Positions 55 through 7,809 of a DNA stretch of 54,551 nt are shown here, piece by piece. Both the position numbers and the translations under genes were made by a program. This DNA comes from Anaerohalosphaeraceae bacterium (GTDB lineage: Bacteria > Planctomycetota > Phycisphaerae > Sedimentisphaerales > Anaerohalosphaeraceae): contig JBBFLK010000022.1 of assembly GCA_037479115.1 (NCBI GenBank), positions 1 through 54,551 of the forward strand, in the 5' to 3' direction. Under the pieces are notes generated by a model. It saw only the letters and a list, made by a program, of their open reading frames with translations. It ran no database searches and was not told where the DNA came from. Within the stretch, counting starts at the first letter, position 1. Each line of letters opens with the position of its first letter.

Positions 55-224
55 GCAAGAAGATTTCCAATGCGAAAAGACGCCTCTGTTCCGAGTTCGC
101 TGCGAAGATGACTCCAGACCTTTTGACGAAAGTTGACCCCAACAACGAGGTGCGCGGCTGGCTCGAGAAAGTTGGCGCGGAACTGAACGCAGGTGAAACA
201 CCGAGACAAGGGGAGGGCGCATGA
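39..224 (+). CDS. Small ORF overlapping the methyltransferase start
   Basis: This is a 61-residue, basic, mostly helical ORF with a TTG start. I do not recognise the family. Its stop overlaps the methyltransferase ATG as ATGA at 221-224, an arrangement typical of translational coupling, and this supports real translation of the 3' part. The frame is closed by a TAA at 27-29, and the only start near the 5' end is a TTG inside a T run without a clear ribosome binding site. It may therefore be the displaced C-terminus of the upstream gene rather than an independent small protein. Confidence 0.4.
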   Translation: METALGKKISNAKRRLCSEFAAKMTPDLLTKVDPNNEVRGWLEKVGAELNAGETPRQGEGA

Positions 225-3200
225 TCCCAAAGGAATGCAAGAGATTGGCGGAGGTGGATTTTCCGATTGCGGTGGTCAGCAAGCACTCGGCGCGGGAGAA
301 GTCCATTCGGCATGGGCATCCATCGACGCTGCACCTGTGGTGGGCCCGGCGGCCGCTGGCGGCCTGTCGAGCCATGCTGCTGGGGCTGCTGCTCCCGGAC
401 CCCTGCGATCCGCGCTGCCCGCCGGATTTCAAAGAGAAGGCACGGTCGCTGCTGCAAAAGACAAGGGGAAATATCGGCCCCAATGACCTTGATTTGAGAA
501 CGGCCTTGCTGGATTTTATTGGCGACTTTGCTGATTGGGATAATTCCTCCCATCCGGTTTATCTGGAAGTCGGCCGGGGACTGGTCAAGGCCGCCTGGCC
601 GGAGGAAACGCCGCTGGTGGTGGACCCCTTTGCTGGCGGCGGGTCGATCCCGCTGGAGGCCCTGCGGCTGGGCTGTGAGGCCTTTGCCAGCGACCTCAAT
701 CCCGTGGCCTGCCTGATCCTCAAGGTCATGCTGGAGGATATTCCCCGCCACGGCCCACAATTGGCGGAGGAACTGCGCCGGGTGGGCAATGAAATCAAGG
801 AAAAGGCCAAGAAGGAACTGGCCGAATTCTATCCCTGCCTGCCGGCAGGCAGGCCAAAGAATCCCGACGAGGCCACACCGAATAAGTATTATGCTTACGT
901 CTTGCGCTGCTGTGATGGTTCTCTTTATAAAGGACACACGGATGACCTTCCTAGACGATTCAAACAACACTGTGAAGGACTGGTCGAATGGACCAAAACA
1001 CGGTTGCCCGTCGATTTGCTTTACTGGGATGAATATGAGACACGAGAAGAAGCCATCGAACGAGAGAAATGGTTGAAATCCGGAGTCGGACGGGAGTGGC
1101 TGGCACAGCAGTTTCCCAAAGAAAAACCTATCGCCTATCTGTGGGCCAGGACCGTTCGCTGTGAATCTCCCAATTGCGGAGCGGAAATCCCGCTGATGCG
1201 GTCGTTCTGGCTTTGCAAGAAAGCCAATCGCAAAAAAGCATTGCGTTATACAGGAACCACGGACAATCTGCCGCAGTTCGAAATATTCGAGCCGGAAACA
1301 GACAAGGAAGTCCAGAACGGCACGGTCACCCGTGCCAAGGCCACCTGTTTGGCCTGTGGTACAGTCCTTTCTCCGGAGCGGGTCCGTGCCCAGCTGGCCG
1401 CCCAACACGGCGGAGCAAATGCCGTGTTTGATGCCAAGGGCAATCGCATCGGCGGGGCACGGCTGCTGGCTGTGGTTACCCTACGAGAGGGCCAAACCGG
1501 CCGTTATTATCGCCTGCCCACCAAAGCAGATTATCAGGCCGTTTATAAGGCCCAGCAGAAACTCAAGAAAATACTTGATGAATGGGAAAGGAACGGCAAA
1601 AAAGGTTTGTGTCCAGTGCCGGATGAGCCGACCCCAGTTGGTGGCGGCTCGGGCGCTGGCCGTGCCTTCAGCGTCCAGAAGTACGGCATGCTCAAATGGG
1701 GCGACCTCTTCACGGCAAGACAAAAATTATCGCTTATTACTATTGCATATAAAATTATGACAGTTAGAGAAAAGCAAAATCTTGCAATAGTACTTAGTCG
1801 AATAACTGATCTTGAAAATTCCCTTTGTGGTTGGCGTGCAAGTTCAGAATGCATTGATCACCTTTTTGCACGACAGGCTTTACCTATTGTGTGGGATTTT
1901 GGTGAAGCTTCTCCAATGGCAGGAGCAACAGGTTCTTGGGATAGCTTATTAGATCGCTCTGCAGAAGGATATTTTACGAGTAGTACATTAAATGAAACTG
2001 GACTAGTTCAGCAAGCCGATGCGTGTCAGTCTCCATTGCCGGAAGATTCTGTATCGGTTTGGTTTACTGATCCGCCGTATTACGACGCGATCCCATATTC
2101 AGATTTGTCGGATTTTTTCTTCGTTTGGCTCAAACGAACGTTACCAGGCCACCCCTTATTGCGAGATCCGTTTGATCCGCAAAATGGCCTAAGCCCCAAA
2201 GCAGCTGAAATAGTTCAGGATGAAACCAAAAAAATAAATAGTCGTTGTAAAGATCGAGCTTTTTTCGAAGAAGCAATGGGGAAAGCGTTTGCCGAAGGCA
2301 GGCGTATTCTGAAAGAAGATGGCATTTCCAGTGTTGTCTTTGCCCATAAAACAACCGAAGGGTGGGAAGCATTATTGACCGGTCTTATCCATGGCGGGTG
2401 GACGATTACCGGCTCCTGGCCCATCGCTACGGAAATGGAGTCGAGGTTAAGAGCCAGAGATTCTGCCGCCCTTGCCACCAGCATCCACCTTGTCTGCCGC
2501 CCGCGGCCCGAGGACGCGCCGGTGGGCGACTGGGGCGAAGTCCTGCGGGAACTGCCCAAACGTGTCGGCGATTGGATGGAACGGCTGCAGGCCGAAGGCA
2601 TCCGCGGCGCGGACCTGGTGTTCGCCTGCATCGGCCCGGCGCTCGAGATCTACAGCCGTTACAGCCGGGTTGAGACGGCGGACGGCCGCCCGGTCAGTCT
2701 GGCCGAATTTCTGGAGAAGGTCTGGGAGGTTGTCGGCCGCATAGCCCTCGAACAGGTGCTGGGTACGGCCGAGGCCAAGGCGCGAAACGGCGTAGCCGGG
2801 GCGCTCGAAGAAGATGCTCGCCTGACGGCCCTGTTCCTCTGGACATTGCAGTCCACCAACGGCCGGAACGGCCCGGGCAGGGAGGCAGGCGAGGAGGCCG
2901 ACGACGAGGCCGGCGACGACGAGGATGAAGAAGAAACCGCCCCGAAGGGTAAGGCCAAAGGGTTCAGCCTGGTCTTCGATGTGGTCCGCCGCTTCGCCCA
3001 GCCCTTGGGCATCGACCTTTCCAAGTGGGAGGGCCGCATCATCAAGACTGAAAAGGGTGTTGTACGGCTGCTGCCGGTTGCTGAACGGGCAAAGCAGTTA
3101 TTCGGCGAGGAAGGGGCTCGGGCTGCGGCTACTTGGGTCGAACAAGATCCGACTCATAATATCCAGCCCATGCTGTTCTCGGATATGGAAGACCGCGCCC

Positions 3201-3478
3201 CGAAGATTCGCGGCCGCCGGGGAAAGCGAACAATCAGTCCCGATGCATCGGAAATTGATGTAAGCCATCAGCGGACAGTCACAACGCTGGATCGGGTCCA
3301 TGCCGCCATGCTGCTGCAGGCCGGGGGGCAGACCAATGCCCTGCGGGCTCTGATCCAGGGCGAACAGCAGCGCGGCCCGGACTTTTTGCGGCTGGCCAAT
3401 GCCCTCTCGGCCCTGTATCCCAAAGACAGCGAAGAAAAACGTTTATTGGATGCTATGCTTCTGGCAGTGCCCAGATAG
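221..3478 (+). CDS. DUF1156 DNA methyltransferase with inserted GIY-YIG domain (anti-phage type)
   Basis: This 1085-residue protein starts at ATG 221, with a GGGGAGGG ribosome binding site 3 bases upstream. The N-terminus has the DUF1156 pattern (AREKSIRHGHPSTLHLWWARRPL). An S-adenosylmethionine-binding motif DPFAGGG lies at residues 135-141, and the catalytic DPPY of an amino-methyltransferase is at residues 617-620. DUF1156 methylases next to DUF499 ATPases are known from helicase-methylase-ATPase defence systems, where methylation is thought to mark self DNA. Two things are odd. About 85 residues (roughly 221-302) form a GIY-YIG nuclease domain that interrupts the protein between ATP and IAYLWARTV. 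The DNA from about 1720 to 2370 is also much richer in A+T than the rest. A strongly acidic stretch lies near residues 890-912. The frame is intact throughout, so the protein may be functional. The methylated sequence cannot be predicted. Confidence 0.88.
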   Translation: MIPKECKRLAEVDFPIAVVSKHSAREKSIRHGHPSTLHLWWARRPLAACRAMLLGLLLPDPCDPRCPPDFKEKARSLLQKTRGNIGPNDLDLRTALLDFIGDFADWDNSSHPVYLEVGRGLVKAAWPEETPLVVDPFAGGGSIPLEALRLGCEAFASDLNPVACLILKVMLEDIPRHGPQLAEELRRVGNEIKEKAKKELAEFYPCLPAGRPKNPDEATPNKYYAYVLRCCDGSLYKGHTDDLPRRFKQHCEGLVEWTKTRLPVDLLYWDEYETREEAIEREKWLKSGVGREWLAQQFPKEKPIAYLWARTVRCESPNCGAEIPLMRSFWLCKKANRKKALRYTGTTDNLPQFEIFEPETDKEVQNGTVTRAKATCLACGTVLSPERVRAQLAAQHGGANAVFDAKGNRIGGARLLAVVTLREGQTGRYYRLPTKADYQAVYKAQQKLKKILDEWERNGKKGLCPVPDEPTPVGGGSGAGRAFSVQKYGMLKWGDLFTARQKLSLITIAYKIMTVREKQNLAIVLSRITDLENSLCGWRASSECIDHLFARQALPIVWDFGEASPMAGATGSWDSLLDRSAEGYFTSSTLNETGLVQQADACQSPLPEDSVSVWFTDPPYYDAIPYSDLSDFFFVWLKRTLPGHPLLRDPFDPQNGLSPKAAEIVQDETKKINSRCKDRAFFEEAMGKAFAEGRRILKEDGISSVVFAHKTTEGWEALLTGLIHGGWTITGSWPIATEMESRLRARDSAALATSIHLVCRPRPEDAPVGDWGEVLRELPKRVGDWMERLQAEGIRGADLVFACIGPALEIYSRYSRVETADGRPVSLAEFLEKVWEVVGRIALEQVLGTAEAKARNGVAGALEEDARLTALFLWTLQSTNGRNGPGREAGEEADDEAGDDEDEEETAPKGKAKGFSLVFDVVRRFAQPLGIDLSKWEGRIIKTEKGVVRLLPVAERAKQLFGEEGARAAATWVEQDPTHNIQPMLFSDMEDRAPKIRGRRGKRTISPDASEIDVSHQRTVTTLDRVHAAMLLQAGGQTNALRALIQGEQQRGPDFLRLANALSALYPKDSEEKRLLDAMLLAVPR
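834..853. repeat. Perfect 20-bp palindrome of the CCTGCCTGCC/GGCAGGCAGG type
   Basis: The 20 bases are fully self-complementary with no loop. The palindrome lies inside the methyltransferase gene, is read as LPAGRP, and is 27 bases upstream of the inserted GIY-YIG domain. From memory, palindromes of this kind are dispersed repeats in many environmental bacterial genomes and sometimes lie inside genes without breaking the frame. Only this copy was seen in the window. Confidence 0.7.
881..1129 (+). mobile_element. GIY-YIG nuclease domain inserted in frame in the methyltransferase
   Basis: The segment encodes a compact GIY-YIG domain of the small YhbQ/UPF0213-like type. It begins YYAYVLRCCDGSLYKG, continues with the arginine-containing helix DLPRRFKQH, and includes the metal-binding glutamate in EREKWLKSGVGREWL. 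This covers essentially a whole stand-alone GIY-YIG protein. Its flanks, ATP on the left and IAYLWARTV on the right, read as neighbouring parts of an uninterrupted DUF1156 protein. The reading frame is kept on both sides, so it behaves like an intein-less in-frame insertion or a fused nuclease domain. Whether it is still mobile, or now cuts DNA for the defence system, is unknown. Confidence 0.75.
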
Positions 3479-3498
3479 AAAGATGAATGGAGGTTTTC

Positions 3499-6273
3499 AT
3501 GGAAGCCTGGTTTAAGGTTGCAACACCGCGAAAAGAAGTTAGAGAGGGCCGCTCGTTCAATCCGGATGAGTTCGCCATTCATTTAGAACAGGTGCTGGCC
3601 AAGACGGCCCCGGAGGATTATCGGGAGCCGAAACAGTTTTTTGCCCGAACCTGCTTTACCCGCGCGCTTCGGGAACATGCGGGCATGGTGCTCCGGCGGC
3701 TTTCCGGCCAGACCTCCAATACGGCCCCGGTGATGACCCTGATCACTCAGTTCGGCGGGGGCAAGACCCACACCCTGGCGGCCTTATATCATTTAGCAAC
3801 TGCAGGAGAGAAGGCATCGGAGTTTTCCGGCGTCAGCACGCTTCTGGAGAAAGCAGGTTTGGACCGTGTTCCCTCGGCCAAAGTGGCCGCATTTGTCGGC
3901 AATGCATGGGACCCTCAGAAGGGCCGGGAGACGCCTTGGATTGATATCGCCTGGCAGTTGGCCGGAGAAAAGGGAGTGGCTTTATTGGGAGAAGCGGCCA
4001 AGACCACACCCCCCGGAACCGAGGCGCTCAACCGGATCTTTCAGGCGGCCGATGCCCCGGTTTTGCTGCTGTTTGATGAAGTATTGAACTTCTTGAACCG
4101 CCACCGCGGCATGGCGGAACAATTTCATGCTTTCATCCAGAATCTGACTGTGGCCGTTACCGGAACGACTCACAGTGCCGCTGTAATCAGTTTGCCCCGC
4201 AGCCAGGTTGAGATGACCGACTGGGATATGCGGTGGCAGGATCGAATCACCAAGGTGGTCCGCCGTGTTGCCAAAGACCTGATTGCCAATGACGAAACCG
4301 AAATTTCCGAGGTGGTTCGCCGCCGTCTGTTTGAGGATATCGGAAACGACCGCATCCGGAAAAATGTGGCTAAATCCTATGCTGACTGGTGTTTTGAACG
4401 GCGGGCACAGCTTCCCCCGGAATGGACGGCAGTGGATAGCGCCAGTACCGAGAAGAAGGCGCGGGAATTTCTTCGGCAGCGGTTTGAAGTCTGCTATCCC
4501 TTCCATCCGGCTACTCTGTCTGTATTTCAGCGGAAATGGCAGGCGCTTCCACAATATCAGCAGACTCGCGGCACGCTGGCCATGCTGGCTCAGTGGATTT
4601 CCTGGGCCTATCGCACCGGCTTTATCGAAGCCCGCAAGGAGCCGTTGATTACGCTGGGTTCGGCTCCGTTGGATGTGCCGGAATTTCGCAGTATTGTGCT
4701 GGGGCAGTTGGGAGAATCCCGCCTTCTTGCCGCCATCGAGGCGGATATTTCCGGTACTCATTCTCATGCTCGGGCATTGGATGCAGACACCCAAGGCGTT
4801 TTGCGGAATATCCATCGAAGGGTCGCGACAACCATCCTGTTTGAATCTTCCGGCGGCCAGGTAGACAAAGTTGCCCACTTGCCGGAATTGCGTTTCGCCC
4901 TCGGGGAACCGGCCATGGATACCACATCCATCGATAACGCAGCGTTTGCTTTGGAAGACAAATCGTACTTTATTCGCCGGGTGGGGTCGGATGGTTTTAA
5001 GATCAGTCATCAGCCGACCATGAAAAAGGTAGTCAATGACCGCCGGGCCTCCCTCGATGAGGAATCTGAAATCATTCCCGCCATGCGGTCACTAATTCAG
5101 AAGGAATTTGAGCGAAGTGCCGGTGTTCCCTTAGTCTTTTTCCCAACCGAAGGGGCCTCTGTACAGGATACCCCGCGGCTGACACTGGTGGTTGCCGATC
5201 CCCGCTCGGAATGGACAGGCGAAGGAACATTGCGCAAGCAAATTGCAGAATGGACAAAACAGCGAGGAAAATCCCCTCGCTTGTATTCGGGATCTCTTGT
5301 CTGGTGTATGAAAAAGCCGGGCCGTGATTTACGCGATAAAGTGGAACTCTGGCTGGCCTGGAAACGAGTGGCCAGGGAGATCGCCGAGGGAACGTTGGGA
5401 GGCGATTTTGACCGCAGCGACCGGGCGGAGCTTCAATCGAAAGTGGCGGAGGCAGAAGAGGCTGCCAAAGACGAGGTCTGGGGTGGCTATCGTTTCGTGG
5501 TCATCGCAGACAACCAGGAATCAGACGGGCTGAAGACCATCGACCTTGGTGCAGGTCATTCCAGCAGCAGTGAATCGATGTGCGGGAGAGTCCTTACGGC
5601 CCTTAAATCGCAGGCCCTGCTGAATGAGTCTGTCGGAGCGGGATATATTGAGAGAAATTGGCCTCCAGCGTTGAAAGAAGGGGGTGCTTGGCCTTTGGCC
5701 AGTCTTCGGCAAAGCTTTCTAAACGGTTCGCTTACTCGGCTTTTAGATCCGGATACGGTTTTACGTTCACGGATTGTCGAATTTGTTTTGAAAGGTGATT
5801 TCGGACTTGCTTCCGGCCAGAAGCCGGATGGATCGTATGAGCGAGTATGGTTTGAGGAATCGATTGCCCCGGATGAAGTCGCATTTGATCCGGGAGTATT
5901 TTTACTGCTTAAATCAAAAGCCCAATCTCTTAAAAGATTGCCGGAACCCGCTCCTCAGCCGGGGCCTACTCCGGGTCCAAGCCCAGAACCTCAACCGCAG
6001 CCGGAGCCTGCTCCGGAACCAGAGTCTGGGCCGGTTCCGCCTTCCGGTGAAAGGAAGCAAACGTTCCGAATCTCAGGCAGTCTGCCGCCGGAGATATGGA
6101 ACCGGCTGGGCACTCGGGTTCTTCCAAAACTGCGAAGCGGTTCCGATTTAGATATTTGTGTGGAGTTTAAGGTCACAGTAGAAAATAGAATGGTTTCTTC
6201 GTTTCATGCAGATTTGCAAAATATCTTAAAGGATTTAGGACTGGATGAGTCTATTTCCATAGAGCCGATTTAG
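3499..6273 (+). CDS. DUF499 ATPase (anti-phage type)
   Basis: A 924-residue P-loop ATPase, 20 bases downstream of the methyltransferase. ATG 3499 is preferred over ATG 3487 because GGAGG at 3489-3493 sits 5 bases before it. The Walker A motif FGGGKTH has its lysine near residue 89, and the Walker B motif LLLFDE lies near 189-194. This matches DUF499 proteins, which are linked to DUF1156 methylases and helicases in defence islands. A proline-glutamate-glutamine-rich linker at about residues 815-850 separates the ATPase body from a small C-terminal domain of about 75 residues. The ATPase probably powers a DNA-translocating or restriction step, with the methylase as the self/non-self partner. 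The helicase partner would lie left of the window. Confidence 0.88.
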   Translation: MEAWFKVATPRKEVREGRSFNPDEFAIHLEQVLAKTAPEDYREPKQFFARTCFTRALREHAGMVLRRLSGQTSNTAPVMTLITQFGGGKTHTLAALYHLATAGEKASEFSGVSTLLEKAGLDRVPSAKVAAFVGNAWDPQKGRETPWIDIAWQLAGEKGVALLGEAAKTTPPGTEALNRIFQAADAPVLLLFDEVLNFLNRHRGMAEQFHAFIQNLTVAVTGTTHSAAVISLPRSQVEMTDWDMRWQDRITKVVRRVAKDLIANDETEISEVVRRRLFEDIGNDRIRKNVAKSYADWCFERRAQLPPEWTAVDSASTEKKAREFLRQRFEVCYPFHPATLSVFQRKWQALPQYQQTRGTLAMLAQWISWAYRTGFIEARKEPLITLGSAPLDVPEFRSIVLGQLGESRLLAAIEADISGTHSHARALDADTQGVLRNIHRRVATTILFESSGGQVDKVAHLPELRFALGEPAMDTTSIDNAAFALEDKSYFIRRVGSDGFKISHQPTMKKVVNDRRASLDEESEIIPAMRSLIQKEFERSAGVPLVFFPTEGASVQDTPRLTLVVADPRSEWTGEGTLRKQIAEWTKQRGKSPRLYSGSLVWCMKKPGRDLRDKVELWLAWKRVAREIAEGTLGGDFDRSDRAELQSKVAEAEEAAKDEVWGGYRFVVIADNQESDGLKTIDLGAGHSSSSESMCGRVLTALKSQALLNESVGAGYIERNWPPALKEGGAWPLASLRQSFLNGSLTRLLDPDTVLRSRIVEFVLKGDFGLASGQKPDGSYERVWFEESIAPDEVAFDPGVFLLLKSKAQSLKRLPEPAPQPGPTPGPSPEPQPQPEPAPEPESGPVPPSGERKQTFRISGSLPPEIWNRLGTRVLPKLRSGSDLDICVEFKVTVENRMVSSFHADLQNILKDLGLDESISIEPI

Positions 6274-6283
6274 CGTTTATGCA

Positions 6284-6520
6284 TTGAAGGGATTATTCTG
6301 GAAATCCTTCTACCGCCACAAACTATCCGGCGACCTGTTCGCTATCGAAACCGACCCGCAGGGCAAGGTCCCGTCCTCCTCCGGCCCGCTGCTGTCCAAG
6401 GAACTTGCCCCGTGTTTCTTGTCAATTCGCGACCGCTTGGAATATCAATGTAGCCCGATATTTTTTGCCGAAACGTTAATACTTGTCTCCCTGAACCTTC
6501 CTTTTATCCCACCCTCATGA
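6284..6520 (+). pseudogene. Possible remnant ORF downstream of the DUF499 gene
   Basis: A 78-residue ORF whose first half (around HKLSGDLFAIETDP) looks protein-like, while the second half decays into low-complexity hydrophobic sequence and overlaps the 3' end of the recombinase gene on the other strand. There is no convincing ribosome binding site. It could be the 5' end of a third gene of the defence unit truncated by integration or deletion. I do not recognise the family. Besides this ORF, nothing else is visible between 6274 and 6503. Confidence 0.25.
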
Positions 6521-7730
6521 TCGCCTCCATCGCCTTCTGATGGTCTTGCTCGGCATAGACTTCTGTAATAGCCGAGGAACGGTGCCCAAGGATAATCCGG
6601 GCGGTTTCCAGCCCGAACTCCTTCCGCAGGAACGTGGCGGCGTTGTGGCGCAGTTGGTGCGGGTGCCAGTGCTGCTCGGGCTTCCAGTTTGTAAATTCCT
6701 CATCCGACATTCCCTCCGGCCGAAACGCCTTCTTGATTGCCTTGGCGATGGAATGGCCATAGCCGGTCGTGGTATAGTGCTCACCCGGCTGTCTTTTGGG
6801 CGCCTTTTTGACGTTGGTGCCCACTGTATTGCCCTGATGCAAAGGCGTCTTGCGGCCGGCAAACTGCTGCTGCCGCCATTCGGCCATGGCCTCTGCAGGG
6901 GAGAAACAATACGCCTCTTTCGGACGCAGCAGAAACGGCCTCAAGACTGCCTGGGCACGAGGGCCCAAGTAAATAGTCCTCGAAAAACCGCGATGGGCCG
7001 TCTTGTGATGAGCAGGGCGGTACAGCCAGATCTTGCCTGACATGTCAATATCACCCGGCCGCAGCATCACCAGCTCCCCGCTGCGGGCACCGGTCAGGAG
7101 TTGAAGCTGAATCAGCGCCCAGACCTGCCGGCTCACATACGGCTGGACCGCGTCGATATGTTCCTGGGGCACCGGACCGATCGGTGCAGTCTCCCTGGCC
7201 TCGCAGCGGCCCTTGGGCAGTCCCTTGACCGTTTTCAGGCCATGATAAACGCCGGCCGGAATCAATTCCTTCTCAGCCGCCCAGCGGAACATCAGTTTGA
7301 TCCGGCTGACCATCTTGTTGATGTTGTTGCGGCAGAGTCCTTTTTGCACCATCTTGTGCCGGACCGCCACAAGGGCACGGGGCCCAAACTCAACCGCCGG
7401 CGCAGCACCATACAGGAACTGAAGCGGCCGCAGGGCCTGTCGGAAGTTGTTGATTTCATAGGTCTGCGTTCCATCGGGCCGAACATAATAGCCCTCGGCA
7501 TGCTTCCAGAACCGGGCGATAATCTCATTGAGGGTGATGTCATTGGGCGGCGGGTCCACCTGCTTTCCGGCCGCCAGCCATTCGGCGATGGCCTGGTGAT
7601 AACGCTGGTTTGCCTCGGCGGTTCCATACGGGCCGAAGTATACGGCTCTTCCGTTCAGGACAGCATAGGCCTGGCCGGTGGCTTTGTGATGACGCAACTT
7701 GGGGATTGGGGTGGTTTTCTGGGCATTCAC
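6504..7730 (-). CDS. Tyrosine recombinase / phage-type integrase
   Basis: A 408-residue site-specific recombinase. The GTG at 7730 is preferred because GGAAAGGG lies 6 bases upstream; an ATG at 7775 would add 15 residues. A SAM-like N-terminal DNA-binding part is followed by the catalytic domain, whose residues are all visible: Arg near 216 (TGARSGE), Lys near 243 (HHKTAH), His-x-x-Arg near 358-361 (HQLRH), His near 383 (LGHRS) and the nucleophile Tyr near 392 (EVYAEQ). The gene starts about 110 bases from the 3' end of tRNA-Asn and points into the island, which is usual for elements integrated at tRNA genes. It probably catalysed integration of the block to its left. Confidence 0.9.
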   Translation of the reverse strand: MNAQKTTPIPKLRHHKATGQAYAVLNGRAVYFGPYGTAEANQRYHQAIAEWLAAGKQVDPPPNDITLNEIIARFWKHAEGYYVRPDGTQTYEINNFRQALRPLQFLYGAAPAVEFGPRALVAVRHKMVQKGLCRNNINKMVSRIKLMFRWAAEKELIPAGVYHGLKTVKGLPKGRCEARETAPIGPVPQEHIDAVQPYVSRQVWALIQLQLLTGARSGELVMLRPGDIDMSGKIWLYRPAHHKTAHRGFSRTIYLGPRAQAVLRPFLLRPKEAYCFSPAEAMAEWRQQQFAGRKTPLHQGNTVGTNVKKAPKRQPGEHYTTTGYGHSIAKAIKKAFRPEGMSDEEFTNWKPEQHWHPHQLRHNAATFLRKEFGLETARIILGHRSSAITEVYAEQDHQKAMEAIMRVG

Positions 7731-7809
7731 GGTATTCCCTTTCCAAAAAAGAGTAGTTCTACTGCTTTCCTGCAAAGAGTTACGACCGCGATGCCCGAAG
7801 GCATGTAAC

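Follow-up and report, generated by a model that had tools for sequence, protein, structure and literature searches.

Short palindromes are scattered through bacterial genomes, sometimes in frame in proteins, and for most of them we know of no mover. In the REP/RAYT systems a nuclease gene is partnered with short dispersed palindromes, the RAYT enzymes being HUH/Y1 transposases, and the Rickettsia palindromic elements are short palindromes that lie in frame in protein genes and for which, to our knowledge, no enzyme is known. Homing endonucleases use the GIY-YIG fold, and one GIY-YIG enzyme, SegB, adjoins tRNA genes. SegB is described as a phage homing endonuclease in the excerpted text of PMC13096335, and the excerpted text of PMC10293859 states that Tsy transposons carry a GIY-YIG nuclease gene, that their movement needs a tyrosine recombinase and TnsF, and that the GIY-YIG nuclease is non-essential.

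Here we describe a locus at which a palindrome and a GIY-YIG domain are both inserted in frame in a DNA methylase gene of an Anaerohalosphaeraceae bacterium. The window, that is, the whole stretch that was analysed, is 54,551 nt long (contig JBBFLK010000022.1 of assembly GCA_037479115.1). The partnership of nuclease and palindrome is like that of REP and RAYT, but the enzyme here is a GIY-YIG and not an HUH/Y1 protein, and Pfam detected no HUH/Y1 transposase in the ORF at 221-3478, the one site to which this result applies. An in-frame palindrome is also the mark of the Rickettsia elements, from which the locus differs by the candidate enzyme alongside, the likeness being one of description. 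Like SegB of phages T4/T6 and similar free-standing homing endonucleases, the unit is a single-gene nuclease, whereas no phage relatives of the window's domain were found, and its copies lie by tRNA fragments accompanied by a hairpin, as well as in frame inside protein genes. The Tsy transposons share a GIY-YIG gene with the unit but, as far as the excerpt cited above goes, they move by a tyrosine recombinase and TnsF.

The host ORF at 221-3478 (plus strand) encodes 1085 aa, and its reading frame is uninterrupted throughout despite the inserts. It matched PADLOC HmaB (PDLC00661, E 3.1e-123) and the DUF1156 DNA methylase family (PF06634, E 2.8e-23), and DUF1156, GIY-YIG and UPF0020 were the only Pfam families found in it. 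The adjoining gene at 3487-6273 (plus strand) encodes HmaC, a DUF499 AAA+ ATPase (PF04465, E 3.4e-15; PADLOC HmaC, E 3e-99), and the two genes are part of an Hma (helicase-methylase-ATPase) defence system. HmaA is not visible because the contig opens only 220 bp ahead of hmaB; in another genome (G122), hmaB is preceded by an HmaA-like gene. Beside the Hma genes we also noticed a tyrosine recombinase of the phage-integrase family at 6504-7775 on the minus strand (PF00589, E 7.5e-13), an ORF that would fit horizontal acquisition of the Hma defence genes.

Two pieces of additional DNA lie in hmaB. The first is a 21-bp in-frame insertion at about 835-855, with ends ambiguous by 1-2 bp, whose core is the perfect 20-bp palindrome CCTGCCTGCCGGCAGGCAGG at 834-853. 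The second, at 881-1129 (plus strand), is an in-frame insertion of 249 bp that encodes 83 aa with the GIY-YIG domain (PF01541), and the native gene resumes at 1130. Between them stand 24 bp of native hmaB at 857-880 (plus strand), encoding KNPDEATP, which aligns with RDPDGATP or KDPDGATP of insert-free homologues. The junction of the window thus reads EFYP[CLPAGRP]KNPDEATP[83 aa]IAYLWARTV, and that of the insert-free homologues reads YP(K/R)DPDGATPIAYLWARTV or near it (12 sequences from 10 distinct genes: L010-L014, L016, L017, L039, L043 and L045, with L044 equal to L014 and L046 to L013; loci L015, L018 and L051-L053, in which the junction motif was unmatched, stand outside this count). The nearest relative found, from a genome of the same family (G944), shares 96% identity over residues 1-206 but lacks both inserts, reading AAP and then IAYLWARTV. 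In a search of 392 genomes of the phylum, the closest HmaB homologues aligned over residues 1 to about 190-212 and then over about 302-1085, at nearly adjacent coordinates of their own. Within the order, 4 of 161 genomes, the bacterium's own counted, gave HmaB matches at E <= 1e-40, and two of these were distant. One of the ten homologues, L039 (G382:C249), has a 1362-aa frame in which a different insertion, of about 775 bp, is found around residue 345; there is another GIY ORF in its vicinity.

A sequence-only reading of this locus had proposed that the flanks ATP and IAYLWARTV were once adjacent and had set alignment with other DUF1156 proteins as the test that could refute it. These flanks, or nearly the same residues, are indeed adjacent in the 10 homologous genes and in G944, and neither insertion is present at the hmaB junction in any of these 11 genes. 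It had also placed a perfect palindrome 27 bases upstream of the GIY-YIG domain. This palindrome is CCTGCCTGCCGGCAGGCAGG, and it does adjoin the GIY-YIG insertion, but as a second insertion with native DNA in between. The alignments show that the palindrome unit and the GIY-YIG unit are two separate additions to hmaB, flanking 24 native bp.

The insert matches PF01541 at HmaB residues 222-287 (E 3e-13; 50.3 bits against a curated cut-off of 22.6), with R26 and E62 present, which bears out the earlier claim of a nearly complete GIY-YIG domain with catalytic Arg and Glu in the DUF1156 protein. Y6, Y16, G18, R26, H30, E62 and K66 (insert numbering) are invariant in 26 aligned relatives including the window's, and we take the first six to be the catalytic positions. 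Modelled alone with AF2, the 83-aa insert adopts the GIY-YIG fold (pLDDT 90.0); the full-length HmaB model was too poor (mean pLDDT 55.7) to place the domain, and the structure prediction thus speaks for the fold of the insert and not for its placement. The best PDB matches of the insert were the UPF0213 proteins 1zg2 (E 1.1e-5) and 1ywl (3.3e-3), followed by the branched-DNA nuclease Slx1 (6seh, 8.9e-3). The UPF0213/YhbQ-type proteins 1zg2 and 1ywl, the best matches in sequence and structure, share the fold and a similar length with the insert. The PDB names them hypothetical proteins, whereas the window's domain lies in frame in a methylase beside a palindrome, and its relatives have inverted repeats. 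No start codon precedes the domain and the insert has no stop of its own. By its sequence, the insert is a member of the GIY-YIG nuclease superfamily and a predicted nuclease.

Several other origins were considered and rejected. No group I intron or ribozyme exceeded the Rfam gathering thresholds in 14 loci, including a 3-kb stretch with the window copy, and the only Rfam matches there were 18 tRNAs and one DUF805 RNA. Pfam found no intein family in the hmaB ORF. As for a phage origin, searches of phages (E <= 1e-6) and of viral contigs gave no relatives; a search of plasmids gave one weak match.

Related domains occur in frame in other genes. When 11 chosen domains were compared with the window's, the best was that of L246, which is 58% identical and interrupts, in frame, a type I N6-methylase from a Bacteroidota genome, and the L056 domain (47%) sits in the same kind of methylase at the same site in another phylum. 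Identities were 51% for the tRNA-associated L006, 46% for L071, which lies inside the HmaA helicase of G061, and 44% for the HsdM copies L041 and L040; the lowest-scoring of the 11 were the HsdR copies L094 (G316) and L255 (G741), found at similar sites in two phyla. By score, L246, L071 and L056 came first, ahead of L006 and the two HsdM copies. Repeats of the form CCTGCC...GGCAGG flank the copies at L040, L041, L056 and L158 (the L071 locus), and a variant, CCTGCCCGCC...GGCAGGCGGG, flanks that at L246. The hosts of these flanked copies are HsdM (G166, G292), another type I methylase (G275 and, with the variant, G763) and HmaA (G061). Measured over the repeats, the copies at L040, L041, L056, L158 and L246 are 282, 282, 297, 285 and 297 bp long, all multiples of three, and the repeats of these five in-frame copies resemble the window's palindrome in sequence. 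No GIY insert was found in 4 homologues of the HmaA, or in 2 native plasmid HsdM proteins. The domain carries an internal stop in two sister copies (TAG in G061, TGA in G275) and the HsdR frame of G316 terminates just after it; therefore, the units are not always kept intact.

All five of these copies (L040, L041, L056, L158 in G061:C84, and L246) start at a GAC, possibly a target preference. In the window, the native segment that separates palindrome and GIY-YIG domain has a GAC halfway along it, at 866-868. Repeats like CCTGAGCTTGTCGA / CTTCGACAGGCTCAG flank GIY copies in HsdR and elsewhere (L255, L094, L082, L090 and L188); this palindrome type is very common in bacterial genomes and we know of no mover for it.

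In three sets of loci, from the window's own phylum, Patescibacteria and Bacteroidota, 27 GIY places lay in ORFs of at least 165 aa, a census that covers the fetched loci and leaves out long ORFs elsewhere, for example in G115, G301, G779, G661 and G831. Nine of them interrupt a host recognised by Pfam: in eight cases this is a restriction or defence gene, and in one it is an ABC permease, with the insert near its end. Another nine are C-terminal fusions to complete domains (four UvdE, five DUF6933) and look like ordinary domain fusions, and the last nine contain no other Pfam family.

Free-standing relatives are found at tRNA genes. A species-representative collection contained three, in Flavobacteriaceae, Nomurabacteria and Peregrinibacteria genomes; the first two lie between a palindrome-interrupted 5' tRNA fragment and an intact copy of that tRNA, and the third lies directly 3' of a tRNA. 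A tRNA gene on the same strand stood within 300 bp of the GIY ORF at 24 of 82 unique places in the own phylum (where over 100 GIY places were listed), 14 of 31 in Patescibacteria and 7 of 34 in Bacteroidota, the latter two fractions being those of the best matches because only the returned loci, the best 30 in each set, were examined (L247, a repeat of L006, was dropped from the Bacteroidota places). Pooled, these are 45 of 147 places, with none having a tRNA on the opposite strand only. The corresponding count at control points was 0 of 590, taken from 59 loci fetched for other reasons; this control is a rough one because the 59 consist of HmaB relatives and pattern loci.

The arrangement at the tRNA genes was analysed in the own-phylum and Patescibacteria sets and L006-L008, leaving out the Bacteroidota set. 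Where the intact tRNA was on the downstream side, the order target-A, insert, target-B, GIY emerged in 19 of 22 tests, one of the 19 (L088) being a spurious pairing. Target-A and target-B were at most 2 nt apart in the tRNA in 13 of the 19. In 16, the inverted repeat of the insert scored above at least 48 of 50 shuffles, and the hairpin of these 16 ended 8-37 bp before the GIY match. With the intact tRNA upstream, two segments were recovered in 12 of 22 tests and a strong hairpin insert in 2 of 22. In the window, a protein gene shows this order too: a piece of the target, the hairpin, a second and short piece of the target, and then GIY-YIG, with 27 bp between hairpin and domain. Patescibacteria, Bacteroidota and the window's phylum all have the two-piece layout, at targets that are unrelated.

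The GIY family is multi-copy. At E <= 1e-10 it matched 168 of 239 Patescibacteria genomes, with as many as 15 matches in a genome, and at E <= 1e-12 it matched 74 of 203 from Bacteroidota. Some Bacteroidota contigs (G685:C34, G685:C23 and G764:C1) carry GIY-YIG arrays at the near-constant spacings of 364-368 bp and 323 bp. In two Bacteroidota genomes (L006 and L270), one and the same position in a tRNA-Arg gene is occupied by palindromes and GIY copies that differ between the two, which is what repeated targeting or homing would produce. In the bacterium's own genome, another GIY-YIG ORF (L001, G000:C4:128656-128877) directly follows the hairpin ACTCCCGCGAAGGCGGGAGT, and a 24-bp direct repeat lies around it.

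Inverted repeats and hairpins were commoner around GIY ORFs than in controls from the same loci, in counts that skip places near contig ends; exact-duplicate GIY loci had been merged (110 to 97). Inverted repeats across the ORF (score of at least 12) were present at 14/31 places against 3/93 control pairs in Patescibacteria and at 18/90 against 12/270 in the own phylum, and imperfect hairpins beside it at 10/31 against 6/93 and 23/79 against 17/237, respectively. Hairpins with perfect arms were found at 10/31 places against 50/310 at 8 bp in Patescibacteria, where those of at least 10 bp were unenriched (at 10 bp, 1/31 against 13/310); for the own phylum, enrichment extended over 8-11 bp and was gone at 12 bp and above. 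Imperfect arms gave the better scores. Many GIY relatives have no clear hairpin or repeat. A tree of the domains was built on 81 columns, leaving out L045, L008, L160 and rows shorter than 60 aa, with L246 also absent; many of its forks are open and its bootstrap is unsettled. Genomes of Patescibacteria and of the own phylum occur together in one 18-row clade (support 85/84), and 13 of its rows have a listed inverted repeat. C(C/T)GTTAG occurs in 11 of these 13 and in 0 of 24 other listed rows, a confinement to one clade that a nuclease with cognate ends would show. The five in-frame labels in the tree need two changes, with the window's row set against the other four across an arbitrary midpoint root. 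Solo hairpins of the type CCCGTTAGAGA...TCTCTAACGGG were found in 0 of 9 genomes, and in 2 of 12 when shorter arms were allowed; therefore, this terminal repeat type is not demonstrated as a dispersed solo repeat.

The window's palindrome had been taken to be of a dispersed type, which holds across the phylum and not within the genome of the bacterium. CCTGCCTGCCGGCAGGCAGG has a single match in the window with up to three mismatches (0.01 expected from shuffles), and its core occurs once in the 3.0-Mb genome. The exact 18-bp core is present in 6 of 149 genomes of the phylum including this one, with at most 9 copies in one genome. All three genomes with at least four GIY matches contain it, as against 3 of 146 others (Fisher 4e-5, at a threshold picked post hoc), and the association with any GIY match is weaker (4/33 against 2/116 genomes, p 0.02). 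Among 14 copies examined outside the window (24 in total), none had a GIY match or a tRNA in the fetched stretch.

The best explanation, in our view, is that a minimal selfish element, consisting of a GIY-YIG nuclease and a partner hairpin, inserted in frame at 835-1129, and we put the probability of this reading at roughly 0.68. Such an element would have two modules, a small UPF0213/Slx1-like nuclease and a hairpin (palindrome) that lies about 8-37 bp from it, or is represented by terminal inverted repeats in other copies. The nuclease would cut branched or hairpin-forming DNA, such as tRNA genes, extruded palindromes and the target, and repair would then copy the unit in. At protein genes, mainly copies that are free of stops and made of pieces that are multiples of three would persist; HmaB would therefore still be translatable, the nuclease domain forming an additional loop, and probably still works despite the insert. 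Restriction and defence genes may be favoured because they are non-essential and widely exchanged, so that they would carry the unit between lineages; this would best account for the copies found in restriction and defence genes. Movement and cleavage by the unit are what we infer from comparing sequences. That a small mobile GIY-YIG unit invaded hmaB without breaking the frame, one of two alternatives in the sequence-only reading, is well supported because of the empty sites in 11 genes, the free-standing relatives with terminal inverted repeats or tRNA duplication, and the in-frame sisters.

The other alternative, a GIY-YIG domain recruited for function, would have HmaB both methylate and cut DNA, or cut unmodified phage DNA. 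The conserved active-site positions are intact, the ORF is open over 1085 aa, eight of the nine recognised interrupted hosts are restriction or defence genes, and the UvdE-GIY and DUF6933-GIY proteins show that a GIY domain can be retained in fusions. There is precedent too, since Eco29kI is reported to be a GIY-YIG enzyme (PMC1952068) and a fused Eco29kI restriction-modification polypeptide is reported to be functional (PMC3039593). A recruited domain sits poorly, however, with its absence from the 11 homologous HmaB genes, with the free-standing members of the family that have inverted repeats or lie in tRNA genes, with the stops in G061 and G275 and the early end of the G316 host frame, and with the presence among the hosts of a helicase and a permease, to which a cutter would bring no obvious function. 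We therefore regard a functional methylase-plus-cutter as unlikely, and as less likely than the mobile unit; no finding requires it.

Two unrelated events, i.e. a solo palindromic repeat entering hmaB and a GIY-YIG fragment landing nearby by chance or illegitimate recombination, are quite improbable. Because neither a duplication nor terminal inverted repeats were seen at the window copy, and its palindrome core is the sole one in the genome, the two pieces could be independent insertions; they stand 24 native bp apart, and 14 of 14 solo palindromes examined are without GIY. How one event would place two pieces some 8-37 bp apart is unexplained by the mobile-unit model. Against a chance pairing, the same order and similar spacing are repeated at many unrelated tRNA targets, and the palindrome is of a type like the flanking repeats of the closest in-frame relatives. 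That the insert is the relic of a classical homing endonuclease, a GIY-YIG enzyme once housed in an intron or intein whose splicing element is gone, is highly improbable despite the GIY-YIG fold, as it has 83 aa and no further DNA-binding domain, and the targets are many and unlike each other.

With the minimal selfish element as the preferred reading, we tentatively propose, as a real possibility short of a likelihood, that these units form an undescribed class of minimal mobile element of about 250-300 bp, in which an Slx1-like GIY-YIG nuclease and its cognate hairpin would be the whole machinery. In Patescibacteria, Bacteroidota and the window's phylum, they would spread via tRNA genes, with the tRNA restored, and in frame via restriction and defence genes, and they may be the missing mover of several dispersed bacterial palindromes. 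No prior description of such elements appeared among the best-ranked full-text literature matches, a scope mostly outside subscription papers and preprints. If the proposal is true, a cognate nuclease beside or inside palindromes would make the question of their mover testable. The in-frame copies in restriction-modification and Hma genes would then show selfish DNA riding on exchanged defence genes, and would show proteins gaining whole domains in one step.
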